Position numbers and translations under genes: made by a program. From Mycobacterium intracellulare ATCC 13950 (GTDB lineage Bacteria; Actinomycetota; Actinomycetes; Mycobacteriales; Mycobacteriaceae): a stretch of DNA of 64,000 nt. Positions 12,586-64,000 of the stretch are shown one piece after another; positions within the stretch are counted from its first letter, which is position 1, and every line of letters starts with the position of its first letter. Under the pieces are notes generated by a model. The model saw only the letters and a program-made list of their open reading frames with translations, was not told the origin of the DNA and did no database searches. The DNA is taken from assembly GCF_000277125.1 (NCBI RefSeq), contig NC_016946.1, positions 2,914,001-2,978,000 on the forward strand, written 5' to 3'.

Positions 12586-13693
12586 AGTTCTGCCCGACCC
12601 CGGGACGTTGAGATCCGGGCGGCGGGAACGGGCGCTGGCCCAGATGGACGAGCACGGTCTGGACATCCTGGTGCTCGGGCGGCAGGCCAACATTCGGTAC
12701 GTCACCGGCGCGCCGCAGCTGTGGATCGCCGGGACACGGCCCTTCGGTCCGATGTGTGTGCTGGTGCGTGCCACTCAAGACATCTACCTCAACAGCACCG
12801 ACGATGAGGGGGTCCCGGAGGAGATCGACCACGATCACCTCTACGGGCTGGCCTGGAATCCTATGACGCTCATCGACGTGCTGAAGAAGGTCGACGGCGC
12901 GGAGTCGGCGAGGCGGGTCGGAACCGACGCGATCACACCGACTTTCGCGGCGCTGCTGCCCGAGGCGTTCCCCAACGCCGAACTGGTCGACGCCGAGCCG
13001 GCAATGCGCGCGGCGCGGCGCATCAAGACGCCCGACGAAATCGCCGCGATGGGGGCGGCCCTTCGTGTCGCCGAACGCGGGCTCGCCTCTGCCCTGGCCG
13101 AATTGGCGCCGGGCGCGTCGGAGCGGACCCTGGCGGGGGTGATGATGGAGGCGATGGCCGCCGGCGGGGTGAGCACGCCGGCCACCCAGGACGCCGCGTG
13201 GGTGACGTCGCGGGAACAGCCGTGGCGCCGCGCGTCTGCGCACGAGATCCGGTCGGGCGATCTCGTCGCGTTCGCCGCCGGTGCGCTCGCGGACGGCTAC
13301 GTCGCGGAGGTGGGACGCACGTGGCCGGCCGGCGATGTTGTCAGCGGCGGGGCGCGTGAGCTCTTCGCCCGCTCGAACGCGTTGTACGACAAGATGCTTG
13401 CCGCCTGTCGCCCCGGCGCGCCCACCAGAGATCTGCTGGCCGCCTATGAGGCGGTCGGTGAGCCGATACCGCCGATGCCGGTCGCACACGGGCTGGGGTT
13501 GGGTTTCGACCCGCCCGTCGTGTCCGCTGCGCTGCTGGCCGCGGGAGAACACGACCAACTCGAGGCGGGCATGGTGTTGGCCATCACCGGCTACGTGTGG
13601 CGGCAGGGCGTCGGCGCGGTGTTCCGCCGCGACACCGTCCACATCACCGAGGACGGCGTCGATGTGCTGACCGGCAGTCCTGCTTGGGCTTAG
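12575..13693 (+). CDS. M24-fold protein with a degenerate metal site (pseudoenzyme partner?)
   Basis: A 372-aa paralogue of the gene before it. Aligned by eye, four of the five metal ligands are lost: Ala234, Glu245, Thr338 and Arg352 replace Asp, Asp, Glu and Glu, and only His305 (VAHGLG) is kept. The frame is intact, codon use is normal and surrounding motifs such as GYVAEVGRTW are conserved, so this is not decay. The 11-base overlap with the active paralogue suggests coupled translation and possibly a heteromer in which this subunit is structural or regulatory. Alternatively it binds one metal or carries out metal-free chemistry. Confidence 0.85.
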   Translation: MATEVLPDPGTLRSGRRERALAQMDEHGLDILVLGRQANIRYVTGAPQLWIAGTRPFGPMCVLVRATQDIYLNSTDDEGVPEEIDHDHLYGLAWNPMTLIDVLKKVDGAESARRVGTDAITPTFAALLPEAFPNAELVDAEPAMRAARRIKTPDEIAAMGAALRVAERGLASALAELAPGASERTLAGVMMEAMAAGGVSTPATQDAAWVTSREQPWRRASAHEIRSGDLVAFAAGALADGYVAEVGRTWPAGDVVSGGARELFARSNALYDKMLAACRPGAPTRDLLAAYEAVGEPIPPMPVAHGLGLGFDPPVVSAALLAAGEHDQLEAGMVLAITGYVWRQGVGAVFRRDTVHITEDGVDVLTGSPAWA

Positions 13694-13741
13694 GCGAGGT
13701 GGCGGCCCTTCCCGGCCCCGCGGGCGAGGGCGCGATTACGG

Positions 13742-13763
13742 ATATCGAAAACGTATATCGAAA
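13742..13763. repeat. Short direct repeat ATATCGAAA
   Basis: ATATCGAAA occurs at 13742-13750 and 13755-13763 (13-bp period), about 75 bp upstream of the 13E12-type gene. It is an AT-rich island in GC-rich DNA. It may be a regulator site or part of the element boundary. Confidence 0.3.
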
Positions 13764-13837
13764 TTCCTTGTGTCACTGTGGTTTCAGTGGTCACGATGCG
13801 GGGTTTTCTGTCGGTGGCCGTTCCTACACTTTGGGGC

Positions 13838-15202
13838 ATGGGTTCGAGCAGTCGGGATGAGATCGTCGAGGTCTTCGACGCGATCGATGCCGACCTGGAC
13901 CGGTTGTGCGCGTTGTCCTTTGAGGTGTTCACCACCCCGGAACGGTTGCGCACGCTCGAGCGCATCGAACGCGTTGCGCGCCGGCTGCGCGCCCCCCAGC
14001 ATGAGTTGATCAATCAGCTGCGCGCCCAGGCCACCACGACAGAACTCGGTGGCACCCTGCGTTGTGCGCTGGCCGATCGGTTACGCATCACCAAGTCCGA
14101 GGCCGGCCGCCGGGTGGACGAAGCCGCTGATCTCGGGGAACGTCAGGCGTTGACCGGGGAGGTGTTGGCCCCCACCTTGAGCGCCACAGCGGCCGCCCAA
14201 CGCCAAGGATTGATCGGCGACGGACACGTGCGGGTCATCCGCGGTTTCTTTGCCAACCTGCCGTCCGGGGTCGACCCGTGCATCCAGGAGCACGCCGACC
14301 AAGATTTGGCGCAGCAGGCCCGCGGCTTTCGCCCCGATGAGTTGCAGAAATACGCCCACCGGCTGATGGGCTGGATCAACCCCGACGGCAAACTTAAAGA
14401 CGGCGAGCGTGCCCGCAAGCGCGGCATCACCATTGGCGCCCAGCAATACGACGGCATGTCACCCATCCGCGGCTATCTGACCCCCGAGGCGCGCGCCACC
14501 TTCGAACCCGTGCTGGCCAAGCTGGGCGCCCCCGGCGCCTGCAATCCTGACGGCGACGTTCCGTTCATCGATGAGGTTCCCGATGACGTTGCAGTGCGCC
14601 GCGACTTGCGTACCCCAGCCCAGCGCAATCACGACGGTCTGCTGGTCGGGCTGCGCGCCCTGCTGGCCTCCGGGGAGTTGGGGTGCCACAACGGCCTACC
14701 CGTGTCGGTCGTGGTCTCCACCAGCCTGCAGGAGCTAGAAGCCGCGGCAGGTAAAGGTATCACCGGCGGGGGCTCGTTGGTGCCGATGTCGGATCTGATC
14801 CGCATGGCCAGCCACGCCCACCACTATTTGGCGATCTTCGACCGCGGCAGGGCTCTGTCGTTGCACCACACCAAGCGGCTGGCCTCTCCCGCTCAGCGAA
14901 TCATGTTGTACGCCAAGGACCGGGGCTGCACGAAACCGGGCTGTGACGCGCCGGCGTATCACAGCCAGGTCCACCACGTGAGCGGCTGGACCACCACGCA
15001 TCGCACCGACATCGACGACCTCACCCTGGCCTGCGGACCGGATAACCGGCTAGCCGAAAAGGGTTGGACCACCCGCAAAAACGCCCGCGGCGACACCGAA
15101 TGGCTCCCACCGGCCCACCTCGACCACGGACAACCCCGCACCAACGCCTTCCATCACCCCGAACGATTCCTGAATTACGACGAAGATGACGACCCGGTTT
15201 GA
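13838..15202 (+). CDS. 13E12 repeat/DUF222 protein with C-terminal HNH endonuclease domain
   Basis: About 454 aa. The start is placed at ATG 13838 because TACACT (13825-13830), a good -10 hexamer, ends 7 nt before it, which fits leaderless transcription. Residues up to about 330 form the DUF222 helical region. The C-terminus carries an HNH domain: [20 protein letters not shown], then TLACGPDNR, with a Ser where many members have a third Cys. Mycobacterial genomes hold several such REP13E12 copies, and in M. tuberculosis one such sequence serves as the phiRv1 attachment site. Here no prophage or recombinase is attached. DNA cleavage is inferred from the fold. Confidence 0.9.
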
Positions 15203-15204
15203 CG

Positions 15205-16479
15205 CTAAGGCAGCACGTCATCGAGTAGGTCCCCCACGCGATGACGTTCCCACGCGCTCAGCAGGTTCGAGAGCATCTGCAGCGGCGCGCGCACGCTTTC
15301 GTCGTCCCGGATGCGCGGATCCTTCCGGGTGCCGGGCACGGTGTCGAATCGCTTGCGGATCAAGGCCGGCACGTCCAGCAGCCAGGCGACCCCCATGGCG
15401 GCCGCGTAGAGCAGCATGTGCCGACGCAACTGGCCAGCCTCGAGCTGCGGACCGCCGCAGCGCTCGTATTCCGTGACGAACAGTTGCAGCAGATCGTCGA
15501 GATGGGTGTCCCACATGTCGGTCTCGGCGCCGGACATCGCTCCCCACAGCGCCATGCCGAGGTTCATCTGGCCGACGCATCCCCAGTCCATCAGGCCGCA
15601 GTGCAACGTGCCGCCGGTGTCGCGCCAGAACCACGCGTTGTCGATGTTGGCGTTCCAGTGGCACAGCGCGACATAGTCGGAGTCGTCGGCCAATTGGTGT
15701 GCGATCACCTGCTCGTGGAGCGCCACGCGCGGCGCGTCGTCGCGCAGGCGGGCCAGGAATTCGGGTGAGCAGGCATTGGTCGGCAGCAGCCCAGGATGCG
15801 TCTGCGCGAATTCGGCGAGCTGGCTCACCCGCCGGTCCAGCTTCTCCGCGGACAGCGGCGCGCGTTCGCCCACCGTCGCGGCCCGCACGTCCAACGGAAA
15901 GTGAGCGGTCAATTCCGCGGGCAGCCGACCCGAGCGATGCGTGCCGGCGAGGCGCGCAAGCGCGGTCAGCAGCGCTCGGTAGTGCCCTAGGGGCTCGGGC
16001 ATCTCGTAGTCGAGGCACTTGTGGTATTGGCGCTCGATTCCGTTGCCGTCGAATTTGATTCGCTCGGTGACCAGCAGGCCGGTGCCGGTGGGGCGGTGGT
16101 AGTCGGCGAACTGCGGGCAGGGTACGGCGATCGGGAATTCCGGGGCGCGGGACAGCGAGGCGAAGCGCACCTCGGGCTCCATCTGTGTCTTTCCGCGGTC
16201 GCGCACCGGATTGTCGAGATCGCGGGAGAACTTCACGAACAGCTCGGTGTGCAGATCGGGTGCGGCACGGTCGTATTCGACCGACAGCACCACCTTGCGT
16301 CCGGTGCTGCCACCGCTGATCTCGCGGTAGTCGCTGATGCGAACGACGCTGTTGTCGGCGAGGACACCCGAAGCCCGAAAGGCCTTCGTAAGGAACGCAG
16401 CTCCACCGCTGAGCAGGGTCGCGGGGTCCGCCGGGATCGGCAATCCGTACTGATCACCGACCACCCAATGCGAACTCAC
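15205..16479 (-). CDS. APH/choline kinase-like phosphotransferase family protein
   Basis: A 424-aa protein with a GTG start at 16479. The glycine-rich N-lobe has EISGGSTGRK and the lysine strand LFVKFS. The catalytic loop CHWNANIDNAW stands in place of HGDxxxxN (Asp replaced by Asn at the usual base position), and GLMDWGCVG replaces the xxIDWE metal motif with Asp kept. Such kinases phosphorylate small hydroxylated molecules; some relatives act on steroids (ecdysteroid kinase-like). The Asp-to-Asn change in the loop questions activity. It follows the SDR by 4 bases and is probably the last gene of the P450 operon. Confidence 0.8.
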   Translation of the reverse strand: MSSHWVVGDQYGLPIPADPATLLSGGAAFLTKAFRASGVLADNSVVRISDYREISGGSTGRKVVLSVEYDRAAPDLHTELFVKFSRDLDNPVRDRGKTQMEPEVRFASLSRAPEFPIAVPCPQFADYHRPTGTGLLVTERIKFDGNGIERQYHKCLDYEMPEPLGHYRALLTALARLAGTHRSGRLPAELTAHFPLDVRAATVGERAPLSAEKLDRRVSQLAEFAQTHPGLLPTNACSPEFLARLRDDAPRVALHEQVIAHQLADDSDYVALCHWNANIDNAWFWRDTGGTLHCGLMDWGCVGQMNLGMALWGAMSGAETDMWDTHLDDLLQLFVTEYERCGGPQLEAGQLRRHMLLYAAAMGVAWLLDVPALIRKRFDTVPGTRKDPRIRDDESVRAPLQMLSNLLSAWERHRVGDLLDDVLP

Positions 16480-21451: not shown

Positions 21452-22653
21452 CGTGACACCAGCGCCGGCATGCATTCCCAGCCCCGCACCGTGGAGGTCG
21501 GGCTGAGGGTGGCTTTGCTCAAATCGACCTCCCACTCGGGGAATCGCTTGAGGATCTCCTCCAGCGCCACGCGGCCCTCCAGGCGCGCCAGCGCCGAACC
21601 CAGGCAGAAGTGCGTGCCCATGCTGAAGGTGAGGTGCGGGCGGACGGCGCGATGGATGTTGAATTCGCCCGCGTCGGGCCCGAATTGGGCCTCGTCGCGG
21701 CACGCCGATCCGATGAGCATCATCATCACGCTGCCTTCGGGCACCGTTTGGTCGTGCACCGTGACGTCGCGGGTCACGTATCGGGACACGTGTGGGGCCG
21801 GCGGCTCGTAGCGCAGAAGCTCTTCGATGGCCTGCGGGATGAGGGCGGGGTTCTCGAGGAGGTCGCGGCGTTGGTCGGGGTGCTCGGCGAGAACCTTTCC
21901 GGACCAACCGATCAGCCGTGTGGTCGTTTCGTTGCCGGCCCCGGCGACGACGTTGAGGTAGACGAGGATCTCCTCGCGACTGAGGTGCCGATTCACACCG
22001 GTTTCATCGACGAACTCGACGTTGAGAAGTTCGGTCATGATGTCGTCGGACGGATGCTCGGCGCGCCAGTCGATGTACGCCTCGAACTGCTCACCCACGG
22101 ACAGGCCGTGCTGGGCCGCATCCATGGGCTTGCCGGCCTCGGTGCGCAGCTGGGCGTTGCCCCGGTCGCGGATGTACTCCTGATCGTCTTCGGGGATGCC
22201 GAGCAGCATGCTGATGACCTTCATCGGCATCTGCGCGCCCAGGTCGGTGACGAAGTCGAAGTGGCCCGAGCCCACCAGCGGGTCCAGCAGTTGGGCGCAG
22301 AAGTCGCGGATCATCGGCTCCAACGCGGCGATCCTGCGCGGGGTGAACATCCGCGACAGCAGTTTGCGGTGCACGTCGTGAATCGGCGGGTCTTCGAAGA
22401 TCAACATGCCCGACGGGATTTCGAGGTTGGCCTTGATCAGCTCGAGGATCGCGCCCCGCGCGGAGCTGTACGTCTCGTGGTCCACGAGCGCCTTGCTGAC
22501 ATCGGCGTAGCGGCTCACCGCGTAGAAGTCGAATTCGGCGTTGTAGTAGAGCGGCGCCTCTTGGCGCAACCGCGCGAACATCGGATACGGGTCGGCGATC
22601 AGCCCGACATCGTATGGATCGAAACGAACATGGCTGTCGGTGCTCGCCGTCAC
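21448..22653 (-). CDS. Cytochrome P450 monooxygenase
   Basis: A 401-aa P450 with a GTG start at 22653. The I-helix motif is AGAGNETTTRLIGW, ExxR is ELLR, and the heme loop FSMGTHFCLGSALAR has its Cys at about residue 350. It is the first gene of the leftward operon and overlaps the mycofactocin-type SDR by 4 bases. This sequence class is shared with mycobacterial CYPs acting on lipophilic substrates, but I cannot assign a family number. The 250-bp upstream region carries a site matching the operator of the TetR gene that follows (22825-22842). No ferredoxin gene is nearby. Confidence 0.95.
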   Translation of the reverse strand: MTASTDSHVRFDPYDVGLIADPYPMFARLRQEAPLYYNAEFDFYAVSRYADVSKALVDHETYSSARGAILELIKANLEIPSGMLIFEDPPIHDVHRKLLSRMFTPRRIAALEPMIRDFCAQLLDPLVGSGHFDFVTDLGAQMPMKVISMLLGIPEDDQEYIRDRGNAQLRTEAGKPMDAAQHGLSVGEQFEAYIDWRAEHPSDDIMTELLNVEFVDETGVNRHLSREEILVYLNVVAGAGNETTTRLIGWSGKVLAEHPDQRRDLLENPALIPQAIEELLRYEPPAPHVSRYVTRDVTVHDQTVPEGSVMMMLIGSACRDEAQFGPDAGEFNIHRAVRPHLTFSMGTHFCLGSALARLEGRVALEEILKRFPEWEVDLSKATLSPTSTVRGWECMPALVSR

Positions 22654-41080: not shown

Positions 41081-42700
41081 TCAGGCGCCGGCGATGGTGG
41101 ATGCCGAACGGCCGTCGGCGTTTTCGTCGGCCGCAGCGTAGGTGGTGCCGCGGGCGGGCCGCGTCCACAACACACCGCCCTCGGCGCTGGGGCCCGCGGC
41201 GATGAGCGCGCGCTTGAGGATCTTGTTGGTCGCGGTCGCGGGCAGCTGGTCGTTGATGCGCACGTAGCGCGGCCACGCCTTGGGTGACAGATCGGGTTGC
41301 GACGCCAGGAATCTCCCGAAATCGTCCGGCGTCAGTTCCGCCCCGGCGCGCGGCACGATCGCGGCCATCACCTGGTCGCCGACCTGGTCGTCGGGCGCGG
41401 CGTAGACGGCGACCTGGCTGATGCCGGGCATCCGCGCCAGGATCCGCTCGATCGGTGCGGCGGCCAAGTTCTCGCCGTCCACCCGCATCCAATCGGAGGT
41501 CCGCCCGGCCAGGTAGATCCAGCCGTCGGCGTCCCGGTAGGCCAGATCGCCCGACCAGTACATGCCGTGGCGCATGCGCTCGGCCGTGGCGCCGGGATCG
41601 TTGTAGTAGCCGGCGAACGGTCCCGCGCCCTGGGTGTTGACGAGTTCGCCGACGGCCTCATCGAAGTTGGTCAGCGCCCCGTGCGCGTCGAACGTCGCGA
41701 CGTCACATTCGGTCAGTGTCGTCGAGTTGTAGATGCTCACCCCGGGGTAAGGCTTGCCGATGGAACCGGGCGGGGTGCCGTCTTCTCGGACCACGATCAC
41801 CGCGAACTCGCTGGATCCGAAGCTGTCCACCACCCGGCAACCGAAACGCCTTGCGAATTCGGCGATATCGCGATCGGTCGCCTCGTTGCCGAAGGCCACC
41901 CGCAGGGTGTTCTCGGCGTCGTCGGGACGCTCCGGGGTGGACAGGATCAACGCCAGGGGCTTGCCGACGTAGTTCAGGTAGGTCACGCGGAAGCGGCGCA
42001 CGTCCTCGAGGAACCGCGACGGCGAAAACTTGGCGGGGACCATGGTGGCGCCGCAGCCGATGGCCACCGCCCACCCCGCGGCGACGCCGTTCGAATGAAA
42101 CAGCGGCATCGCCAGGTAACACACGTCGGCGGCGGTGACGTCGTACTGGAAGATCAGGCTGGCGCCGCACATGATGGCCAACCCGTGCGCGAACCGGACC
42201 ACCTTGGGGTCACCGCTCGTCCCCGAGGTGAAGATCATCATGAGCGTGTCGGCGGCGGCGACCTCGCGGTGCGGGGTCAGCGGTGGCGCCGCGGTCACCG
42301 CCTCGGCGTAACTCGTCCCGTCCACGTCGAAAACCTGAATTCCGTTGAGATCCAGGCCCTCCAGCAGGGGCAGGTGATCGCGGTCGACCAGCAGGATCTG
42401 GCAGTCCGAGCGCCGGATGTCGGCGAGCAGCGCGGGTCCGCGGCGGGTCGTGTTGAGGCCGCACAGCACGTAGCCGCCCAGCGCGGCCGCGGCCATCGCC
42501 CGCAGCATGGCCGGTGAATTGCCCAGTGCGGCACCGACATGCAGCGGCCGGGTGGGGTCGGCGCGCGAGATCAGGGCAGCCGCTTCGGCCTCGGCTTCGG
42601 CGAGGTGCTCGCGCCAGGTCCACGTCTTCTCGCCGTGGGCGATCGCGGGGGTGTCCTCGTGCCTGCGCTGCCGCAACAGCTGCTGAACCGTCTCCGGCAC
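41081..42700 (-). CDS. FadD-type fatty acyl-CoA/AMP ligase (FadD1/FadD17-like)
   Basis: A 539-aa ANL enzyme with a GTG start at 42700. Motifs are IFTSGTSGDPKVV (P-loop), DSFGSSEFAV (A5 region), WSGDLAYRDADGWIY then GRTSDWMRVDGEN (A7/A8), and the catalytic Lys in TATNKILKRAL. The phrase GGYVLCGLNTTRRGPALLAD places it with the FadD1/FadD17 group as I recall them. The last gene of the eight-gene operon, 21 bases after the monooxygenase, it would activate the carboxylate substrate that the FadE pair then oxidises. Confidence 0.9.
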   Translation of the reverse strand: MPETVQQLLRQRRHEDTPAIAHGEKTWTWREHLAEAEAEAAALISRADPTRPLHVGAALGNSPAMLRAMAAAALGGYVLCGLNTTRRGPALLADIRRSDCQILLVDRDHLPLLEGLDLNGIQVFDVDGTSYAEAVTAAPPLTPHREVAAADTLMMIFTSGTSGDPKVVRFAHGLAIMCGASLIFQYDVTAADVCYLAMPLFHSNGVAAGWAVAIGCGATMVPAKFSPSRFLEDVRRFRVTYLNYVGKPLALILSTPERPDDAENTLRVAFGNEATDRDIAEFARRFGCRVVDSFGSSEFAVIVVREDGTPPGSIGKPYPGVSIYNSTTLTECDVATFDAHGALTNFDEAVGELVNTQGAGPFAGYYNDPGATAERMRHGMYWSGDLAYRDADGWIYLAGRTSDWMRVDGENLAAAPIERILARMPGISQVAVYAAPDDQVGDQVMAAIVPRAGAELTPDDFGRFLASQPDLSPKAWPRYVRINDQLPATATNKILKRALIAAGPSAEGGVLWTRPARGTTYAAADENADGRSASTIAGA

Positions 42701-42721
42701 CGTCTCACTTCCTCCGTGCTG

Positions 42722-44313
<1,592 letters not shown>

Positions 44314-44317
<4 letters not shown>

Positions 44318-44724
44318 GCGGGCCGATACCTCAGTAACGTGACTCCGTCTTCGAGATCGCAGAACACCGGCTCCACCCGCATCCCGATCCGGACGTCGCC
44401 GGGATCGACGTCGACCAGCTCGGTGCTGAATTTCGGCCCGGCGTCCCACTGCACCACCGCGAGCAGCTGCGGCAGCGCGTCGGCCCACGGCGGGCCGGTG
44501 GGCCGGCGGGCGATCGTGAAGGTGTACAGCGTTGCGGCGCCGTCGATCTCACGCCATTCCAAATCGTCGGCCAGGGTCCCCGGGGCCAGCGTGCGCGGGT
44601 AGAACACGTGCCGCCGAAGCGACGGCGAGTACTGCACCAGGATCCGGTGCTGCGCCAGGCCGTCCCAGAACGGCCGGGACACCGGTGTGGGCTCGGGGAC
44701 GAGCGCATCGTCGCGGCGGGCCAT
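44314..44724 (-). CDS. DUF35 OB-fold protein, acyl-CoA-binding partner of the thiolase-fold enzyme
   Basis: About 136 aa from ATG 44724. The DUF35 layout is clear: an N-terminal helix with PFWDGLAQHRI, then the position of the zinc ribbon, then the OB-fold (WREIDGAATLYTFTIARRP, LLAVVQWDAGP). The ribbon cysteines are all gone: VQYSPSLRRHVFYPRTLAPG replaces the usual CxxC...CxxC. In ChsH2 the DUF35 domain binds and activates Ltp2. The gene follows the thiolase-fold gene by 2 bases, so a 1:1 complex is likely. It is free-standing here, not fused to MaoC. Confidence 0.85.
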
Positions 44725-44726
44725 CG

Positions 44727-45929
44727 CTAATCCCCCCGCAGGAGCAGCGCGACCTGCTCGCTCATGATGCCGCCGTTGCCGGTCACGAACGCGGTGTGAC
44801 AGTCGGGCACCTGCGCGTCGCCGGCACGTCCCATGACCTGCCGCGCTCCGTCGACCACGTGGTGCATGCCGCCGGCCATTCCGGCCTGACCGAAGGACAG
44901 TTGCCCGCCGGCGGTGTTGAGCGGGAACTCCCCGCGATGGGTCAAATCGTGTTCGTTGATCCACGACATGCCTTTGCCTTTCGCGCAGAATCCGGCGTCT
45001 TCCAGGCTCATCAGCACCGTGATGGTGTAGCAATCGTAGATCGAGGCGACGTCGACGTCGGACCGGGACAGCCCGGCCATTGCGAACGCCCGCTCGGCGG
45101 CGCGGGCGATGGGTGTGGACAGCAGGTCCTCGGCGTAGGTGGGGGTCTTGAAGGCGATGTGTTCGCCGAACCCCTTGATCCAGACCGGGCGGTGGCGGGC
45201 TCGGCGCGCGATGTCGGCGTTGGCGATCAACACCGCCGCTCCCCCGTGCACGCGCATCACCGTTTCCAGCATGTGGATGGGGTCGGCGATCATCGGGCTG
45301 TCCAGCACGTCCTTCACCGTGATGGGGGTGCCGTGGAAGACGGCACCGGGGTGGGCGCACGCGTTGGTGCGTTGGTCGACGGCGATCTTGGCGACCGCGG
45401 CGGGGTCGTAACCGTATTCGGCCGCGTACCGCTGGGCGATCTGCGCGTAGGGCGCGTTTTGGCCCACGTTGCCGTAGGGGATCTCGAACTCGGCCTGCGG
45501 CGAGCCGTAGTTGCCCGAGGACGCCCCATACCAATTCGGCTCCGGCGCGGGCCGCCGTTCGGACCGGGGCACGGCCGCGGAGCCGGGTACCACGGCCAGG
45601 GCGGCCTCGCAGACGCCGAGTTCGACGGCCGCCGCGGCCCGCCACACCATGCCGGCCGAGGTGGCCCCGCCCAAGTCGACCCGCTCACCGAAATCCAGTG
45701 CCAGGCCCAGGTATTCGCACAGGGTGGCCGGGGCGAACATGGCCGACTCGGCGATGCCGTGGGTCAGCAGGCCGTTGACACAGCCCGGATCGACACCGGC
45801 GTCCTCGATCACCATCTTCGCCAGCAGCGCGTACTGGTCGAGGGTGAACATCGCGGGGCCGGTGGGGCGCCGTTCGGCCGGCAGCTCGGCGATGCCGACG
45901 ATCGCGGCCTCTCCCCGCAGCCCGCTCAT
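44727..45929 (-). CDS. Thiolase-fold lipid-transfer (Ltp2-like) protein, probable retro-aldolase
   Basis: A 400-aa thiolase-superfamily protein of the SCP-x/Ltp group. The nucleophile loop reads LGGATSAGM, with no Cys where thiolases have CSSG, so it is not a normal thiolase. The conserved C-terminal part SIYDCYTITVLMSLEDAGFC, then EFPLNTAGGQLSFGQAGMAG, fits the Ltp2 aldolases, which split 3-hydroxyacyl-CoA with the help of a DUF35 domain. It starts at ATG 45929, overlapping the MaoC stop by 4 bases, and precedes the DUF35 gene by 2. Predicted products: a ketone plus a short acyl-CoA. Confidence 0.87.
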   Translation of the reverse strand: MSGLRGEAAIVGIAELPAERRPTGPAMFTLDQYALLAKMVIEDAGVDPGCVNGLLTHGIAESAMFAPATLCEYLGLALDFGERVDLGGATSAGMVWRAAAAVELGVCEAALAVVPGSAAVPRSERRPAPEPNWYGASSGNYGSPQAEFEIPYGNVGQNAPYAQIAQRYAAEYGYDPAAVAKIAVDQRTNACAHPGAVFHGTPITVKDVLDSPMIADPIHMLETVMRVHGGAAVLIANADIARRARHRPVWIKGFGEHIAFKTPTYAEDLLSTPIARAAERAFAMAGLSRSDVDVASIYDCYTITVLMSLEDAGFCAKGKGMSWINEHDLTHRGEFPLNTAGGQLSFGQAGMAGGMHHVVDGARQVMGRAGDAQVPDCHTAFVTGNGGIMSEQVALLLRGD

Positions 45930-46381
45930 GCCCGGCTCCCCCGCAGCGGCAGCGCGACGCCGGCGGTGCCCGGCATCAGCACCGTGTCGCCGCGCCGGCC
46001 GGCGATGTCCAGATCCACCAGGCCGTAGCCCTCAAAATCATTGCCGCCCGGGCGTTTGCCGGTGACCTCGCCACCGAAACTGAGCGCCTCACCGGGATAG
46101 GCGATCGCCCGGTTCTGCACCGAGAACGTCACCAGCCTGCCCCGCCCGCCGATCCAGTCCCCGAGGGCGCGGGCCAGCAGCGCCGCCTGCAGCGGACCGT
46201 GCACCAGCACGTTGTCGTATCCCTCGGTGTCGCGGGCCCACTCCTTGTCGTAGTGGATCCGGTGACCGTTGTATGTGGCGGCCGAAAAGAAGAACATCTG
46301 GGTTTCGTCGACGGTCACCGTCAGCGTGGGGATGTGATCGCCGACGGCGATGTCTTCATAGAACACTTGCTGGTCGGCCAC
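45926..46381 (-). CDS. MaoC-like hotdog dehydratase subunit (ChsH1-like)
   Basis: A 151-aa hotdog protein with a GTG start at 46381. FEDIAVGD-type start (YEDIAVGDHIPTLTVTVDET), then ATYNGHRIHYDKEWARDTEG with the conserved His, then VLVHGPLQAALLARALGDWI, are the MaoC pattern. It corresponds to ChsH1, the catalytic half of the cholesterol side-chain hydratase. Only 7 bases separate it from the larger MaoC-like gene upstream, so the two probably form a heteromer that hydrates the enoyl-CoA made by the FadE pair. Confidence 0.87.
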   Translation of the reverse strand: MADQQVFYEDIAVGDHIPTLTVTVDETQMFFFSAATYNGHRIHYDKEWARDTEGYDNVLVHGPLQAALLARALGDWIGGRGRLVTFSVQNRAIAYPGEALSFGGEVTGKRPGGNDFEGYGLVDLDIAGRRGDTVLMPGTAGVALPLRGSRA

Positions 46382-46388
46382 GATGCTC

Positions 46389-46889
46389 CTAGGGGCGGGC
46401 GATCATCGACGTCGACGCTTCGGCCAGCAGGTCGCGATCCTGGTTGCGGTACACCGTGTGCCAGGTGACGAGGACGAATCTGCCGGAGCGGCCTCGCTTT
46501 TCGACGATCGACTCGATGGTGCGGACCATTTCGATTTCGTCGCGGTGGTAGGCCGGCAGGTGAAAGGTGAAGCTCTCCCCGCCGGCCATCCGCTTGGGGG
46601 CGCGGGGAAACGCGAGGCTGCCGGAGACCGCGCCGGAGGATCCGTCGGGGCGCAGCGACTTTAGCCGCGACACCCCGAGGACCGCGTACTGCAGGTACAG
46701 CGGCGGGCAGATGATGTCGCGAAAGCCGTTGGCGCGGGCGTACTCCGGATCGAAATACAACGGGTTGTCCTCGCCGACCGCGGCCGCCCACCGTTGCCAA
46801 TCGCGCCGGTTCACCTCACCGGTCGCCGAGGCGGCGACCGTGCCCACCCTCGACGCCGACTCGGCGTCGATCAAGCTGTCCTCACTCAC
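46389..46889 (-). CDS. MaoC_dehydratas_N-type hotdog protein (partner subunit)
   Basis: About 166 aa from GTG 46889. The start is set by overlap with the FadE stop (46882-46884) and by the protein's alignment, VSEDSLIDAESASRVGTVAA. It has the N-terminal-hydratase pattern: GEVNRRDWQRWAAAVGEDNP, YFDPEYARANGFRDIICPP and a hydrophobic helix. It matches the non-catalytic or N-terminal MaoC half found in ChsH2, but without the fused DUF35 domain. Pairing with the next MaoC gene is inferred from order and tight spacing. Confidence 0.82.
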   Translation of the reverse strand: MSEDSLIDAESASRVGTVAASATGEVNRRDWQRWAAAVGEDNPLYFDPEYARANGFRDIICPPLYLQYAVLGVSRLKSLRPDGSSGAVSGSLAFPRAPKRMAGGESFTFHLPAYHRDEIEMVRTIESIVEKRGRSGRFVLVTWHTVYRNQDRDLLAEASTSMIARP

Positions 46890-48015
46890 CGGCGCTCCCT
46901 TCTCCCATGGTCTCCTGAAGCCACGACGCCGCGACGTCGGTGCCGCCGCCGAGCGTCGCACCGAGGCGGGCCCGCTCGCTCCACAAATGCAGGTCCGTCT
47001 CGGTGACATAGCCCATCCCGCCGTGCAGCTGATGGGCGTCGAGCGTGATCAGCCGGGCCGCGGTTGCCGCGTGCATGCGGGCGATGGCGGTCTCCCTGCT
47101 CGCGGTGCGGCCGCGCCCCAGCCAGAACACCGCCGCGTGCGCCGCCAATCGCGCGGCCGCCAGGGCGATGTGCATGTCGGCGATCAGATGCTGGGCCGCC
47201 TGAAACGAGGCGATGGGCCGGCCGAACTGGTGACGCAGCTTGGTGTAGTCGACGGTGCGGTCCAGCACGGCCTGGCCGACCCCGACCAGGTCGAGTGATC
47301 CCAGCGCCACCGCGGTGTTGGCCAGCCGGCGCAATCCCGGCACGGTGACGCCGTCGAGCACGGCGTCACCGGCCACGACCGTGCCGTCGAAGCGCACGGT
47401 GAACGCCCGGTGCCCGCCGACCATGTCGAGCGGCTCGACGGTCACACCGGCGCCGTGCGCGTCGACGAGGAAGACCAGCGGGCGTTCGGCTCCGTCCCGC
47501 GACGAGGCGGCCGAGACCACGATGAGATCGGCGACGTCGGCGTCGGCGACGTAATCCGCGGTTCCGTTGAGCCGCCACCGATTCGGATCGGGATCGGCGC
47601 GCAGCGCAGGGGCGACGAGCGCGGCGTCGCGGGCGTTCCAGACGGCGGTGGTGGCGCGGAGGCTGCCGCACGCGAGCGGGGGCAGCCAAGCGGCCTTGGC
47701 CTCCGGGGAGCCGAGCTGGTCGACGGCGAGGGCGGCGTGCACGGTGCTGTGCACGGTCGTCGGGCACAGCGCGCGGCCGGCTTCGGTGAAGAACACGGCC
47801 AGGTCGTCGAGTGAGCCACCGGCGCCGCCGTACTCCTCGGCGACGGCCAGCCCGAATACCCCCGAGTCGGCCACCGCCTTCCACAGCGACGGCGTGCGCC
47901 GGTCCGTGCCCGGCTCGTCGAGGGCGCGCACCAGGCTGACCGGGTTCTCGGCGGCCAGCAGGGCGCGTAGCGCCGCGGCGAACTCCCGCTGCTCGGCGGA
48001 CGGGATCGTCTTCAT
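46882..48015 (-). CDS. Acyl-CoA dehydrogenase (FadE), probable non-catalytic partner subunit
   Basis: A 377-aa acyl-CoA dehydrogenase from ATG 48015. The FAD/acyl regions are recognisable: EEYGGAGGSLDDLAVFFTEA, KLRHQFGRPIASFQAAQHLI and LHGGMGYVTETDLHLWSERA. The helix that should carry the catalytic Glu reads LGSLDLVGVGQAV without one, and the MCAD-type Glu site reads TLGGGTD. It is therefore probably the partner of the upstream FadE in an alpha2beta2 enzyme like ChsE1-ChsE2. It lies 21 bases after that gene and overlaps the MaoC-like gene. Confidence 0.9.
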   Translation of the reverse strand: MKTIPSAEQREFAAALRALLAAENPVSLVRALDEPGTDRRTPSLWKAVADSGVFGLAVAEEYGGAGGSLDDLAVFFTEAGRALCPTTVHSTVHAALAVDQLGSPEAKAAWLPPLACGSLRATTAVWNARDAALVAPALRADPDPNRWRLNGTADYVADADVADLIVVSAASSRDGAERPLVFLVDAHGAGVTVEPLDMVGGHRAFTVRFDGTVVAGDAVLDGVTVPGLRRLANTAVALGSLDLVGVGQAVLDRTVDYTKLRHQFGRPIASFQAAQHLIADMHIALAAARLAAHAAVFWLGRGRTASRETAIARMHAATAARLITLDAHQLHGGMGYVTETDLHLWSERARLGATLGGGTDVAASWLQETMGEGSAGE

Positions 48016-48036
48016 CGGTGGTGTGCGAGGTTTCCG

Positions 48037-49215
48037 TCAGCGTCCATAGGAGGGCATCCCGTGCCCGCGCTGGGCGATGATGTCGCGAAGCACCTCGTTG
48101 GTGCCCCCGCCGAAGCGCATCAGCGGGGCGGCCCGGTAGAGCCGCTCGAATTTGCCGGCCAGCGGGGCCTGTTCGCTGCGATGCGCCAACAGGCCGTCCG
48201 GGCCGAGGAGATCGAGCGCCAGGGCGGCGATGCGCTGGCGCAGCTCGCTGGTGAACACCTTCTCGACGCTTACCTCGACGGTCGGAATGACGCCGCTGTC
48301 GAGGATCGAGGCCGCCTCGTAGCCCATCAGCGTGGCCACCGCGACGTCGGCTTCGGCCTGCGTCAGCCGGCGGCGAAGCGACGGGTCGTCGGCGGGCACC
48401 GTCCCGTCGCGGCGCGGACTGCGCGAAAGTTCGTGCAATTCCTCGACGGCGCGGCGCAGGTCTCCGGCGTTGGTCAGCGCGCCGCGCTCGAGGTCGAGCG
48501 CGCCGGTGATGTAGGTCCAGCCGCGGTTGACCTCGCCGACGAGGTTGGTGGCCGGCACCCGCACGTCGCGGAATGCCACCTCGTTGGTGCGGTAGCCCGA
48601 CCACGCGTAGAGCGGGCGGATCTCGACGCCGGGGCTGTCGATCGGCACGATGATGACCGAGATGCCGCGGTGGCGTGCGGTCGTCGGATCGGTACGGACG
48701 CAGAGCCATTCGTGCGTGGCCCGCTGCGCGCCGCTGTTCCAGATCTTGGTCCCGTTGATCACCCATTCCTCGCCGTCGCGGGTCGCGGTGGTCCGCAGGC
48801 TCGCCAGGTCGGTCCCGGCCTCGGGCTCGGAATAGCCGACCGCGCAGATCATTTCGCCCCGGGCGATCGGGGGCAGCCACTCGCTCTTGTTCCGCTCGGT
48901 GCCGTGACGCATGATCATCGGCGCCACCGACGTGACGGTCAGGTCGGGTCCGGGCACGCCCCAGTACTCGAATTCGCTCATCAACAGGTGCAGGTGAATG
49001 GCGCCCAGACCCAGCCCCCCGTACTCGCGCGGCCAGTTCAGCCCGAACCAGCCCTTGGCGCCGATCTCGCGGCGGAACCGCGCCACCTCGCCGTCGAGAA
49101 TCTCCAAGTCGTGCGCGGCCAGCTCGGCGCGCAATGCGGGGGTGACATTCTCGTGCAGAAATTGGCGGACCTCGGCCAGCCAGGCGCGCTGCCCGGCGTC
49201 GAGTTCGAAATCCAT
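48037..49215 (-). CDS. Acyl-CoA dehydrogenase (FadE), probable catalytic subunit
   Basis: A 392-aa acyl-CoA dehydrogenase from ATG 49215, the first gene of the operon. WPREYGGLGLG, SEPEAGTDLASLRTTA and WVINGTKIWNSGA are family motifs. ITGALDLERGAL carries a Glu at about residue 240, the position used as base in isovaleryl-CoA dehydrogenase-type enzymes. The MCAD-type site reads FGGGTNEV and lacks Glu. With the next FadE it should form a heterotetramer, as the mycobacterial steroid enzymes do, acting on a bulky acyl-CoA. Confidence 0.92.
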   Translation of the reverse strand: MDFELDAGQRAWLAEVRQFLHENVTPALRAELAAHDLEILDGEVARFRREIGAKGWFGLNWPREYGGLGLGAIHLHLLMSEFEYWGVPGPDLTVTSVAPMIMRHGTERNKSEWLPPIARGEMICAVGYSEPEAGTDLASLRTTATRDGEEWVINGTKIWNSGAQRATHEWLCVRTDPTTARHRGISVIIVPIDSPGVEIRPLYAWSGYRTNEVAFRDVRVPATNLVGEVNRGWTYITGALDLERGALTNAGDLRRAVEELHELSRSPRRDGTVPADDPSLRRRLTQAEADVAVATLMGYEAASILDSGVIPTVEVSVEKVFTSELRQRIAALALDLLGPDGLLAHRSEQAPLAGKFERLYRAAPLMRFGGGTNEVLRDIIAQRGHGMPSYGR

Positions 49216-49249
49216 TCCGGCGCCTATGCCTTTCTCGGAGCGTCGATGC

Positions 49250-49277
49250 CGTTACACCGAGCAGCGCCAGCGTAACG
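49250..49277. promoter_or_regulatory. Inverted repeat upstream of the eight-gene operon
   Basis: CGTTAC (49250-49255) and GTAACG (49272-49277) are perfect 6-bp arms with a 16-bp spacer, 35 bp upstream of the first fadE start. It is a candidate regulator site or promoter element; the short arms make it tentative. Confidence 0.35.
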
Positions 49278-49468
49278 CCGCCGCGAGTTCGCGCGTGGCA
49301 TTCTGCCGCGCATCGGTCGCGAACGGCGGGGGTCGCACTGTAAAACCGCTGTCAAACTCCCGTTAAAACCCGTCGACGCTCTGGCGGATTCGGCCGCGGG
49401 CTGCGAAGATTTTCGGATCGGTTGGTCAACGCGGACCAGGCCCTCTGCCCCAGCCCGAGGGAGAAATC

Positions 49469-60942: not shown

Positions 60943-61734
60943 TCATTTCTGGCCCAGGAGTTCCTGCACGGCTCTGTGCGCGCCCAACACGATCGCGGCG
61001 CGGTCCGGGCCGCTGCCCCGGTGCACCGCGGCCGCGTTGCCGCCAGCGATGAACACCGGGCCGTTGGCCAGGTTCTCCAACCCCTCGCGGGCCACGTCGG
61101 CCGGTTCGGACACCGACAGCCCCGGCACGTCGAAGTTCAGGCCGGCCCGGGCCATGGCCGGCGTGCGGGTCACGCCCAGCACCAGTTCCAGCACATCGAC
61201 GCCGTGCTCGCGCAGCTCCAGCCACAGGCTCTCGGCGAAGAGGCGGCTGAAGGCCTTCACGCCGGTGTAGACCGATTGGCGCATCGAACCGTGGGTCGCC
61301 GCCATCGAGCCGACCACCAAAATGCCGCCCCGGCCGCGGGACCGCATCGGCCGCGCAAAGTGCTGCACGAGTTGCAGCATCCGCGTCACGTTGAGGTCGA
61401 TCACCCGGCCGAACTCGCTGAGCTCGGCGTCCAAAAACGGCTTGCTGCAGGTGTTGGCGCCGGCGTTGTAGATCAACAGGCCGACCTCGATGTCCGCGGT
61501 CTGCGCGGTGATTCGCGCGACCGCGTCGGGGTCCAGCAGGTCTATGGCCAACGTGCGCACCTGTGCGCCGAAATCGCGGCACTGCCGCGCCGTGTCCTCC
61601 AGCGGTCCCGGCTTGCGAGCGATCAGCACCAGATCGAACCCGTCACCGGCCAATTGCTCTGCGAACTCGGCGCCCACCCCTTCCGAGCCGCCGGCGATCA
61701 CCGCCCACGGCCCGTACTTCGCGATGTCGGTCAC
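60943..61734 (-). CDS. SDR family oxidoreductase, DltE/YqjQ-like
   Basis: A 263-aa SDR with a GTG start at 61734. The cofactor loop is IAGGSEGVGAEFAEQLAGDG (Ala-Gly-Gly in place of TGxxxGxG). LIARKPGP is NADP-like, YNAG replaces NNAG, VVGSMAATHGS carries the Ser and YTGVK the Tyr-Lys. The later part (GLENLANGPVFIAGGN) fits the DltE-type class. It differs from its two upstream neighbours, which are mycofactocin-type. It follows the second of them by 9 bases. Confidence 0.9.
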   Translation of the reverse strand: MTDIAKYGPWAVIAGGSEGVGAEFAEQLAGDGFDLVLIARKPGPLEDTARQCRDFGAQVRTLAIDLLDPDAVARITAQTADIEVGLLIYNAGANTCSKPFLDAELSEFGRVIDLNVTRMLQLVQHFARPMRSRGRGGILVVGSMAATHGSMRQSVYTGVKAFSRLFAESLWLELREHGVDVLELVLGVTRTPAMARAGLNFDVPGLSVSEPADVAREGLENLANGPVFIAGGNAAAVHRGSGPDRAAIVLGAHRAVQELLGQK

Positions 61735-61743
61735 GGATCCTCC

Positions 61744-62589
61744 TTATTTCTGGGTGGCGCCCGCGTCGACGGGCAAGGTGATCGCGGTGATGTAGCGCGC
61801 CTCGTCGGAGGCGAGGAACAGCGCGGCGTTGGCCACGTCGAGGGGGTCGATCCACGGCACCGCGAGCATGTTCATCGAACGCGCGGCGTCGGCGAATTCG
61901 GCGCGCGTCGGCGGGCGGTCCAGGTCCGGGCGAAAGGCGCTGCTGACGACGTCGTTCTGGATCATCGGCGTGTCGACGTTGGTCGGGTTGACGCAGTTGA
62001 CCCGGACATGGTGCGGCGCAAGCTCGTTGGCCAACGAGCGCATCAAGCCGACCACGCCGTGTTTGGCGGCCGTGTAGTGCGCGACCCCGACCAGGCCGCG
62101 CAGCCCGGCGATCGAGCTCGTCAGGATGACCGATCCGGCGCCGCGCGCGATGAGGTGGGGCGCGCCGGCGCGGCAGGTGTGCCAGACCCCGGTGAGGTTG
62201 ACGTCCAGCATGGTGCGCCAGGCGTTTTCGTCCAGCTCGACCGCCATGCCGCGCGACGTGATTCCCGCGGTCGCGCACACCACGTCCAGTCCGCCGAACC
62301 GCGCGGCGCCTCGGTCGGTAGCGGCCCGCATGCCGGCGAGGTCGCGGACGTCGACGATCTCGGGGTGCACCCGCCCGCCGGCCTCGCGGATCAGCGATGC
62401 GGTGGTGTCGAGGTCGTCCGGCGTGCTGTGCGGGACGAGCACCGTGTCGATCGGGCCGCACACGTCGAGCGCCACGATGTCGGCGCCCTCCTGGGCGAAG
62501 CGCACCGCCTGCGCGCGACCGATCCCCCGCGCCGCGCCGGTGATCAGGGCGACCTTGCCGTCGAGTCGCCCACCGCGCGCCGCCCTCAT
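61744..62589 (-). CDS. Mycofactocin-type SDR oxidoreductase
   Basis: A 281-aa SDR from ATG 62589, coupled to the preceding gene by an ATGA overlap. It has GKVALITGAARGIGRAQAVR, then FAQEGADIVALDVCGPI, the mycofactocin-associated N-terminus with an insertion carrying PHSTPDDLDTTA. YTAAK is the Tyr-Lys pair and YITAITLPVDAGATQK ends the protein. It is closely similar to the product at 20615-21451, including the CGPI segment. Cofactor recycling would need mycofactocin genes elsewhere. Substrate probably an alcohol of the adjoining pathway. Confidence 0.92.
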   Translation of the reverse strand: MRAARGGRLDGKVALITGAARGIGRAQAVRFAQEGADIVALDVCGPIDTVLVPHSTPDDLDTTASLIREAGGRVHPEIVDVRDLAGMRAATDRGAARFGGLDVVCATAGITSRGMAVELDENAWRTMLDVNLTGVWHTCRAGAPHLIARGAGSVILTSSIAGLRGLVGVAHYTAAKHGVVGLMRSLANELAPHHVRVNCVNPTNVDTPMIQNDVVSSAFRPDLDRPPTRAEFADAARSMNMLAVPWIDPLDVANAALFLASDEARYITAITLPVDAGATQK

Positions 62590-63389
62590 GTCGTCTTCTG
62601 GGTCAGGCCGGCGTCGACGACGAGCTGGGTGCCGGTGATGTAGCGGGCCTCATCCGAGGCCAGGAACAGCACGGCGTTGGCGATGTCGACGGGCTCGACC
62701 CACGGCACCGGAAGCAGGTTGCGGGCCCGCAGCACCTCGGCGGCGTCGGCCTCCGTCGGGTTTTCCAGGTCCGGTCGCAGCCGCCGAAAGGTGGCCTCGT
62801 TGAGCACCATTGGGGTCGCGACGGGGCCTGGGTGCACGGTGTTGACCCGGATGCCGCGGGGCCCGAGCTCGTTGGCCAGCGTGCGGGCCAGTCCCACCAC
62901 CGCGTGCTTGCTGGCGGTGTAGTGGGCGGTGTTGGGCAGGCCGCGAAGGCCGCTGGTGGAGCTGATGATGACGACGGAGCCGCCGTCACCACCGATATGC
63001 GGCACCCCGGCCCTGACGGTGTGCCAGACGCCGGTGAGGTTGATGTCCAGTGTGCGCTGCCACACCAGTGGGTCCAGTTCCCACGACGGCGCGCCCGGCA
63101 GGTGGACGCCGGCGTTGGCGACGATGGTGTCGAGGCGGCCCAGCTCGGCGGCGCCGGCATCGATGGCGGCGGTGACGGCCCCGAGGTCGGTGACGTCGGC
63201 CAGCCCGGTCACGCAGCGCCGACCGCGATCGGCGACTTTCTCTGCGGTGTCGGCCAACTCGTCGGCCACGGCCGGGGCGTCGAGCGCGATCACGTCGGCG
63301 CCCTCGTCGGCGAACCGCTGGCAATGCACCCGGCCGGTTCCCTTGGCGGCGCCGGTGACGACGACGACCGTGTCCCGTAGACCCGTCAT
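62586..63389 (-). CDS. Mycofactocin-type SDR oxidoreductase
   Basis: A 267-aa SDR from ATG 63389, overlapping the monooxygenase stop by 4 bases. TGAAKGTGRVHCQRFADEGA, then DVIALDAP, is the mycofactocin-type nucleotide region, with a shorter insertion than in its neighbour. NAGVHLPGAPS follows, then VIISSTSGLRGL, YTASK and ITGTQLVVDAGLTQK. Two mycofactocin-type SDRs side by side suggest different stereo- or substrate specificity, or a heteromer. Confidence 0.92.
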   Translation of the reverse strand: MTGLRDTVVVVTGAAKGTGRVHCQRFADEGADVIALDAPAVADELADTAEKVADRGRRCVTGLADVTDLGAVTAAIDAGAAELGRLDTIVANAGVHLPGAPSWELDPLVWQRTLDINLTGVWHTVRAGVPHIGGDGGSVVIISSTSGLRGLPNTAHYTASKHAVVGLARTLANELGPRGIRVNTVHPGPVATPMVLNEATFRRLRPDLENPTEADAAEVLRARNLLPVPWVEPVDIANAVLFLASDEARYITGTQLVVDAGLTQKTT

Positions 63390-64000
63390 CGTTCGATGAG
63401 ATCGAAGCCGCGGTAGCCGGCGTCGGCGACCTCGGCGCAGATGTCGTTATAGGTCGCGAAGCCCCCGACGAACAGCATGAAACCCCGGGGCTTTCCCGGC
63501 ACGTTCGCGCCCATGTACCACGAGTTCGCCTTGGTGAACAACGTCGTCTCGGCCCGACGGGCGCATTCGGCGCCCCAGCCGTCCACGCTGTCGACGCCTG
63601 CTTCGATCGCGGCGTAACCGTGCTCGTCGAGGAACGCGATGGCGTCGGCGATCCAGTTCACCTGGGCTTCGGCGTGCAGCACCATGTTCGCCAGCACGGC
63701 GGGCGCTCCCGGGCCCGAGATCAGGAACAGGTTGGGGAAGCCGTCGACGCCCAGCCCCAAATAGGTGCGGGGTCCGTGCGCCCAGTCGTCGCGCAGGGCG
63801 GTGCCGCGGCGCCCGACGATATCGATCCGGCCCAGCGCACCGGTCATCGCGTCGAAACCCGTTGCCAGCACGATCATGTCGACGTCGTAGTGGGCGTCGG
63901 TCGTGTTGATGCCGGTGGCGTCGACGGATTCGATGGGGGTGACGCGGACGCTGATCAGCGACACGTTCGGGCGGTTGAAGGTCTGAAAATAGTTGCTGTC
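63386..64000 (-). CDS. Baeyer-Villiger-type flavin monooxygenase, C-terminal part (5' end outside window)
   Basis: The frame runs from the window edge to the stop at 63386, giving the last 204 aa. DSNYFQTFNRPNVSLI matches the YYATFNRDNVRLVNL stretch of the monooxygenase at 42722, and LATGFDAMTGALGRID, SGPGAPAVLANMVLHAEAQV and NSWYMGANVPGKPRGF are shared. The FAD, NADP and fingerprint motifs lie beyond position 64000 and cannot be judged. It is the upstream partner of two mycofactocin-type SDRs, which could make or consume its ketone. Confidence 0.9.
   Translation of the reverse strand, partial: DSNYFQTFNRPNVSLISVRVTPIESVDATGINTTDAHYDVDMIVLATGFDAMTGALGRIDIVGRRGTALRDDWAHGPRTYLGLGVDGFPNLFLISGPGAPAVLANMVLHAEAQVNWIADAIAFLDEHGYAAIEAGVDSVDGWGAECARRAETTLFTKANSWYMGANVPGKPRGFMLFVGGFATYNDICAEVADAGYRGFDLIER

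Follow-up and report, generated by a model that had tools for sequence, protein, structure and literature searches.

The stretch analysed here is a window of 64,000 bases from Mycobacterium intracellulare ATCC 13950 (bases 2914001-2978000 of a single 5.40-Mb contig). It carries, at 49215-41081, an operon of eight minus-strand genes built around a thiolase-fold retro-aldolase of the Sal type, with genes for acyl-CoA dehydrogenases, hydratases, a DUF35 protein, a Baeyer-Villiger monooxygenase (BVMO)-like flavoprotein and a coenzyme A (CoA) ligase. Pfam and NCBIfam back all the families named, as follows.

48037-49215, minus strand: FadEa, acyl-CoA dehydrogenase subunit with Pfam ACAD domains (best PDB match 4x28_A, 263 bits, then 6wy8_B, 243 bits)
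46882-48015, minus strand: FadEb, partner acyl-CoA dehydrogenase subunit (Pfam; best PDB match 6wy8_A, Tcur3481, 121 bits)
46389-46889, minus strand: MaoC-like protein of the ChsH2 N-domain type (MaoC2; Pfam FAS1_DH_region), presumed inert partner
45926-46381, minus strand: MaoC protein of the ChsH1 type (MaoC1; Pfam MaoC_dehydratas; NGHRIH His kept), presumed catalytic hydratase
44727-45929, minus strand: Sal-type retro-aldolase with thiolase fold and YDCY motif (9myr_A, 450 bits; assigned by tree and residues)
44314-44724, minus strand: stand-alone DUF35/OB-fold protein, aldolase partner (OB_ChsH2_C; best PDB match 9myr_B, 103 bits)
42722-44317, minus strand: type I BVMO-like flavoprotein (4aos, steroid monooxygenase, 616 bits)
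41081-42700, minus strand: FadD1-type acyl-CoA ligase (NF009927, 963 bits, cut-off 800)

Read 5' to 3' from FadEa, the gaps are +21, -8 (FadEb/MaoC-like), +7, -4, +2, -4 and +21 bases; the 8-base overlap with FadEb is obtained with an in-frame GTG at 46889 as the start of the MaoC-like gene. The listed reading frames of the MaoC-like, DUF35 and BVMO genes begin too far upstream. The tight leftward packing described in the original prediction, which was made from the window's sequence, is confirmed, with no gap above 21 bases, and the activities it proposed (a ligase, a dehydrogenase pair, a hydratase pair, a retro-aldolase with DUF35 and a ketone-type monooxygenase) are supported by the families.

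To compare the operon with its relatives we used a genome scan in which 359 stretches encode a thiolase-fold relative. The best 80 loci, from Mycobacterium, Mycolicibacterium, Nocardioides and its family, and Amycolatopsis, were kept, which makes this a sample of near relatives, and three plasmid loci (two from Rhodococcus, one from Vibrio) were added to give 83 loci besides the window. Neighbours were counted at E<=1e-15 over half of the query in fetched flanks of up to 10 kb; some loci end at contig ends, and a few matches are paralogs (FadD in L107, 40% identical; FadEa in L116, 31%). Next to the Sal gene we found FadEa in 77 loci, FadEb in 76, the MaoC-like gene in 81, MaoC in 82, DUF35 in 79 and FadD in 74. 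Because the same neighbours recur at so many other Sal-relative loci, the grouping is not a matter of chance. A BVMO gene is present in 59 of the 83. Within a sample of 297 genomes of the genus, 200 encode a Sal-type protein (E<=1e-150) and 104 one of the window type (at least 77% identity; the next listed group reaches at most 66%). The BVMO (E<=1e-230) occurs in 67 of these genomes, 63 of which also have the window-type Sal, a count uncorrected for kinship.

The PDB matches of the aldolase were 9myr_A at 450 bits, 4u4e at 190 and 6ok1 at 135. The last is the Ltp2 complex (PMC12329534; papers given by PMC number are cited for the accessible part of their text), and 9MYR we take, from its sequence and PMC12329534, to be the CtShy-DUF35/CtSal structure. 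Sal of Comamonas testosteroni (CtSal) is a bile-acid C22-C23 aldolase that yields a C22 aldehyde and acetyl-CoA, and actinobacterial relatives of it have already been noted (PMC12329534). The window aldolase is 52% identical to CtSal (the 9myr chain) and a paralog elsewhere in the genome, at L031, is 53% identical to it, compared with 30% for the genome's own igr Ltp2. In a maximum-likelihood tree of 35 rows, flagged by the program for long branches that meet outside the Sal group, CtSal and a Vibrio protein joined the window aldolase and its relatives in a single group of 17 rows with support of 100/100, and the igr Ltp2 fell outside it. The YDCY dyad is kept in all 84 sequences, and CtSal residues Tyr302, Cys304, Gln161, Tyr165, Gln347, Gln352, Gly89 and Gly391 are all matched in the window aldolase. 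Where the window aldolase has the Cys of YDCY and a Gln at the position of the Ltp2 acid Tyr (Tyr344), the igr Ltp2 of the same genome has YDHF and Tyr. CtSal His59, which would clash with a flat sterol (PMC12329534), stands opposite a gap in all 15 actinobacterial members of the group and also in many rows outside it.

The window aldolase thus belongs to the Sal clade, apart from Ltp2, and we rejected igr/Ltp2 membership on both clade and active-site residues. A true thiolase was also rejected, on the YDCY motif and on the Gly at CtSal position 89, where three thiolase-like paralogs of this genome have Cys. The original prediction had modelled the operon on igr, with an Ltp2-like removal of three carbons. 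Its likeness to igr stands for gene order and gene types and fails for the aldolase, whose YDCY Cys and whose Gln in place of the acid Tyr mark it as Sal-type. Of the two placements which that prediction took as speaking against it, with true thiolases or with unrelated Ltp proteins, the tree gives only a clade different from that of Ltp2.

The DUF35 gene adjoins the aldolase gene, and its closest PDB match is the DUF35 chain of 9myr; Sal and DUF35 are predicted to form a steroid retro-aldolase pair. Where igr has a ChsH2 fusion of MaoC and DUF35, the window operon has two separate genes. The zinc-finger segment of DUF35 is without Cys in 78 of 79 sequences, and the Vibrio protein has four. 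The DUF35 of the genome's own igr ChsH2 (L034, 9927-10889) also lacks the zinc-finger Cys residues, so their loss has happened elsewhere too. A Cys4 finger has been described for the Thermomonospora protein and a Cys3His1 finger for CtShy (PMC12329534). On the Vibrio alfacsensis plasmid (L117, 16213-17148) the Sal-type gene lies beside a gene for a protein with an N-terminal, four-Cys DUF35 and a C-terminus that by eye resembles a MaoC domain.

In FadEa the Glu of LDLERGAL is present in all 77 sequences. We presume it to be catalytic, its position being that of the catalytic Glu in IVD-type enzymes; the catalytic residues of the FadE and MaoC subunits in general are likewise presumed. No conserved Glu was found in either of two segments of FadEb in 76 sequences. 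The PDB entries matched by the two subunits, 4x28 and 6wy8, are presumably steroid acyl-CoA dehydrogenases. The MaoC-like protein matched only ChsH1/ChsH2 entries (4w78/4wnb, E ~5e-5) and has Trp (58 of 82) or Tyr (24 of 82) at the hydratase His position, whereas MaoC1 has His in 83 of 83. Both the FadE and the MaoC pair would fit a catalytic subunit joined to an inert one, as in the steroid enzymes. The ligase passes the FadD1 model NF009927; its next-best models, FadD17 at 558 bits and CasI, a steroid-22-oyl-CoA synthetase, at 489 bits, are both under their cut-offs. A ligase paralog in the same genome fits the FadD1 model better, at 1021 bits compared with 963, and we do not claim M. tuberculosis FadD1 as a relic of the operon.

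The BVMO matches steroid monooxygenase at 616 bits and phenylacetone monooxygenase at 533 in the PDB. It is 54% identical to the Rhodococcus rhodochrous steroid monooxygenase (4AOS), with which it shares the GTKR motif and an intact first fingerprint, [AG]GxWxxxx[FY]P[GM]xxxD (GGTWYWNRYPGARCD). It differs in the second, FxGxxxHxxxW[PD], where FSGEVYFTAAWP has Phe for His; 60 sequences have Phe (45), Tyr (9) or His (6) at this position. Both fingerprints are hallmarks of type I BVMOs (PMC4498894, also the source of the second motif). A protein-database search gave no help in placing the enzyme, the best 120 of 7983 matches all being at least 80% identical. An HSL-type esterase (at least 38% identity, at most 150 bases from the BVMO, same strand) accompanies it in 53 of the 83 loci, and three more loci have both genes further apart. 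By this measure L042, L045 and L110 have a BVMO without the esterase, and L083 and L093 the esterase without a BVMO. The window operon is without one, the best match in its genome being 49% identical and located elsewhere; so is that of a close relative (G046) with the same BVMO (92%), and L035-L037 have neither gene.

The original prediction suggested looking for the true igr operon at another place in the genome, and one was found: FadE, FadE, ChsH2 with DUF35, ChsH1 and Ltp2 at ~525.7-530.5 kb, beside a CYP125-like gene (L034). A further igr-like set lies at ~1985-1990 kb (L033). A third cluster, at ~5341-5346 kb (L031), has a Sal (64% identical to that of the window), a DUF35 (67%), a TetR regulator and a frame of at most 851 residues made of two dehydrogenase units. 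It is probably the counterpart of the HBC operon (atf1-chsH4-chsE6-kstR3) of Mycolicibacterium neoaurum, judged from matching content, since the gene numbering in PMC10398937 is ambiguous. In that operon, knockout and complementation showed that formation of the C22-C23 cleavage product requires Atf1 (PMC10398937). We rejected the window operon as its ortholog, as it is L031 that matches it in Sal, DUF35, acyl-CoA dehydrogenase and TetR; no TetR gene was found in the window operon. A FadD1-type ligase, a CoA-transferase and a further thiolase-like/DUF35 pair lie near the L031 cluster (L031, 14081-19343).

Set against the known systems, the window operon shares with Sal-Shy of C. testosteroni the aldolase clade, the YDCY dyad, the equivalents of Gln347, Gln352, Gln161 and Gly391, and a DUF35 partner. 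It differs in that its DUF35 is unfused from the hydratase and free of zinc Cys, the hydratase is encoded by two genes, no residue aligns to CtSal His59, and a BVMO is added, in most relatives with the esterase. With the HBC operon it has in common an actinobacterial Sal-type aldolase and a stand-alone DUF35; that operon, as described in the accessible part of PMC10398937, has one acyl-CoA dehydrogenase gene and a TetR gene but no MaoC pair, ligase or BVMO. Compared with igr (cyp125-fadE28-fadE29-chsH2-chsH1-ltp2), order and types agree, with a dehydrogenase pair, a hydratase pair and a thiolase-fold aldolase in both, whereas the window operon has a separate DUF35, a ligase and a BVMO, lacks CYP125, shows no KstR core box upstream, and has an aldolase of another clade with other residues. 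The absence of a P450 gene holds for the window operon; some of its relatives depart from it, as a CYP125-like gene (>50% identity) lies in the fetched flank of 21 of the 83 loci. The M. moriokaense protein used as query has CYP125 as best PDB match (649 bits), and the M. intracellulare genome has three genes 66-78% identical to it. Two P450 genes within the window, at 8202-9119 and 21532-22590, are 34% and 29% identical to this query.

Further genes of interest lie to the right of the operon, among them the following group, which is not part of it.

60943-63964, minus strand: three short-chain dehydrogenases/reductases (SDRs), two of them mycofactocin-coupled, and the 3' portion of a second BVMO (BVMO2) that runs past the window

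BVMO2 is 65% identical to steroid monooxygenase, closer than the BVMO of the operon, and has the canonical fingerprint; the two mycofactocin SDRs, at or past the right end of the window, score 317 and 375 bits (cut-off 300). Beyond the window (2978-3001 kb; L135, L136) are HsaA-like, HsaC-like, KshA, KstD and esterase-like proteins. The HsaA-like protein scores 367 bits and the HsaC-like protein 364 (cut-off 450 for each), the latter also 374 on a biphenyl-diol dioxygenase model (cut-off 366); KstD scores 968 (cut-off 793), and the KshA-like protein has 3-ketosteroid 9alpha-hydroxylases as best PDB matches (622 bits). From the operon start, the HsaA-like gene is 16 kb, KshA 35 kb and KstD 36 kb away. 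The same stretch encodes a FAD-binding protein and an IclR-like regulator, under cut-offs. Relatives of the HsaA-like, HsaC-like and KshA genes lie on the same side in both genomes viewed (G046, G242); within the stretches fetched, BVMO2, the SDRs and KstD were found in G046 alone. Second copies in the igr neighbourhood of the M. intracellulare genome are 62% (KshA) and 47% (HsaC) identical. A Rhodococcus qingshengii plasmid carries the orthologous operon and, after it, genes for two SDRs, a BVMO (66% identity to steroid monooxygenase) and a Rieske oxygenase with 60% identity to the KshA-like enzyme of the M. intracellulare genome; the first of these SDRs is annotated as mycofactocin-coupled (299 bits, cut-off 300). 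The group at 60943-63964 resembles this plasmid module.

Motif scans gave little for regulation. The scan for the KstR2 core motif gave no support, a consensus scan for sigma-70-like promoters found none, and one terminator-like site was detected, within FadD (42114-42101), fewer than the shuffle mean of 3.3. Upstream of FadEa, 11 of 77 stretches have GCGTAAC and GTTACGC half-sites 20-60 bases apart, often with a GCGAAAT/ATTTCGC-like pair nested within them; the window keeps only GTTACGC (~49216-49330). The half-sites are a possible operator.

We read the operon as one for Sal-type steroid side-chain shortening, within a second steroid-catabolic region of this Mycobacterium, with a probability of about 60%. 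The branched or ring-bearing acid of the original prediction can be narrowed, with moderate confidence and from sequence comparison, to a steroid-like acid. Such a substrate is favoured because of the FadD1-type ligase, the steroid-monooxygenase-like BVMO, the CYP125-like P450s and the HsaA-like, HsaC-like, KshA and KstD genes nearby. It is further supported by the ligase's next resemblance to FadD17 and CasI, the matches of FadE to 4x28 and 6wy8, and that of the MaoC-like protein to ChsH1/ChsH2 only. The FadD1-type ligase would load a steroid acid, probably with a C24-type side chain, on CoA, a FadEa/FadEb heteromer would desaturate the steroid acyl-CoA, and the MaoC pair would hydrate the enoyl-CoA. 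Sal-DUF35 would then cut the chain, so that acetyl-CoA (or propionyl-CoA) is released and the steroid is left with an aldehyde or ketone group. Oxygen may next be inserted beside this carbonyl by the BVMO; the resulting ester would be hydrolysed by an esterase, which is encoded beside the BVMO in most BVMO loci and absent from the window operon. That the route is probably distinct from that for cholesterol, as first proposed, is supported; that it is self-contained is weakened by the missing esterase and by steroid-ring-type genes that lie outside the operon.

Several observations weigh against this interpretation. BVMO activity is uncertain since the fingerprint His is replaced, which leaves it plausible but not assured, and the BVMO is dispensable, being not seen in 24 of 83 loci (including L035-L037), some of them cut by contig ends. 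For the characterised Sal the substrates are C24 bile acids, and the product is an aldehyde, not a ketone. The best PDB match of MaoC is itaconyl-CoA hydratase (8huc/8khg), with ChsH1/ChsH2 weak, and taken alone this does not point to steroids. Of 77 stretches upstream of the operon, just 3 contain the KstR core box AACNNGTT; the single positive control, the genome's own cyp125, has it at -152. Within the fetched flanks (<=10 kb), KshA was seen at one of the 83 loci, the Rhodococcus plasmid. The search for ring genes at distances above 10 kb covered just three related genomes, and the linkage may be coincidence. Two CoA-transferases lie within the operon in five non-mycobacterial loci, three from Nocardioides, one from Amycolatopsis and one on a Rhodococcus plasmid (L087, L101, L102, L107, L115); the FadD1-type ligase was not seen in four of them, and L107 has a 40% relative only. 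Some of these loci also have genes for transporters or solute-binding proteins close by, namely a five-gene ABC transporter at L115 (the Rhodococcus plasmid) and a Peripla_BP_6 binding protein at L107 (Amycolatopsis). CoA-transferases and transporters could fit a smaller, soluble acid. At L087 of Nocardioides daejeonensis (11681-15273), the operon is followed by genes for an Amidohydro_3 protein and a family-5 solute-binding protein, a hint that the substrate in this case is amide-conjugated or imported.

These CoA-transferases and transporter genes also speak for the rival that we consider rather unlikely but the least so, a non-steroid or beta-branched terpenoid acid. Such an acid would be dehydrogenated and then hydrated to give a tertiary beta-hydroxyacyl-CoA; a retro-aldol cut would yield a ketone and acetyl-CoA, and after Baeyer-Villiger oxidation the ester would be hydrolysed. 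BVMOs usually act on ketones, and the SDR that accompanies the BVMO on the Rhodococcus plasmid (299 bits against the cut-off of 300) is of the mycofactocin type, a family that we take to include carveol dehydrogenases. However, the nearest relatives of the aldolase, DUF35, MaoC-like protein, BVMO and ligase are steroid enzymes, and the CYP125-like, KshA, KstD and HsaA/HsaC-like genes nearby fit poorly with such an acid. We give less credence to an igr-type operon, in which an Ltp2-like C17-C20 cut would yield a 17-ketone and propionyl-CoA and the BVMO a D-ring lactone. The FadE-FadE-ChsH2-ChsH1-aldolase order is that of igr, and PMC12239570 mentions that BVMOs convert androstenedione to testololactone, but the aldolase is far closer to CtSal than to the genome's own Ltp2, its active-site residues differ, and a true igr operon is already present in the genome. 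A duplicate of the HBC function (a C24 sterol intermediate cut to a C22 aldehyde, with the BVMO unrelated to that product) is also hard to credit. The identity of its Sal and DUF35 to those of the HBC-like L031 cluster favours it, yet the window operon has two dehydrogenase genes instead of one fused frame, its own hydratases and ligase and no TetR, and two Sal copies occur in many genomes of the genus.

Within the steroid side-chain reading that we prefer, one extended version, which we consider rather unlikely, is that the operon and its neighbours make up an oxygen-dependent side-chain route that bypasses the CoA-dependent C3 (igr) round. Sal would leave a C22 aldehyde, which the divergent BVMO would convert to the formate ester of a 20-alcohol; the esterase and the mycofactocin SDRs would give the 20-ketone, BVMO2 the 17-acetate, and the KshA/KstD/HsaA/HsaC-like set would open the rings. 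The scheme is chemically reasonable because BVMOs of Caenibius convert progesterone to testosterone acetate (PMC12239570, accessible part). The open-licence literature listings searched showed no linked region that degrades steroid acids by way of a pregnane-type intermediate.

For one actinobacterial Sal relative a role in sterol conversion has been demonstrated (PMC10398937). The open-licence literature, searched mostly by listings, yielded neither a Sal-type operon with a BVMO nor a description of the window-type version seen in 104 of the 297 genomes, and the accessible parts of PMC6593523 and PMC7807495 do not show a BVMO or a Sal-type aldolase of this kind. With its own ligase, a two-gene dehydrogenase and hydratase and a BVMO, the operon offers a testable answer to how mycobacteria handle the carbonyl left by retro-aldol cleavage. 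With a DUF35 free of zinc Cys and no counterpart of His59, it is a natural system for testing how Sal enzymes discriminate between the bent rings of bile acids and the flat rings of sterols. The operon is also a possible catalyst for making steroid synthons.

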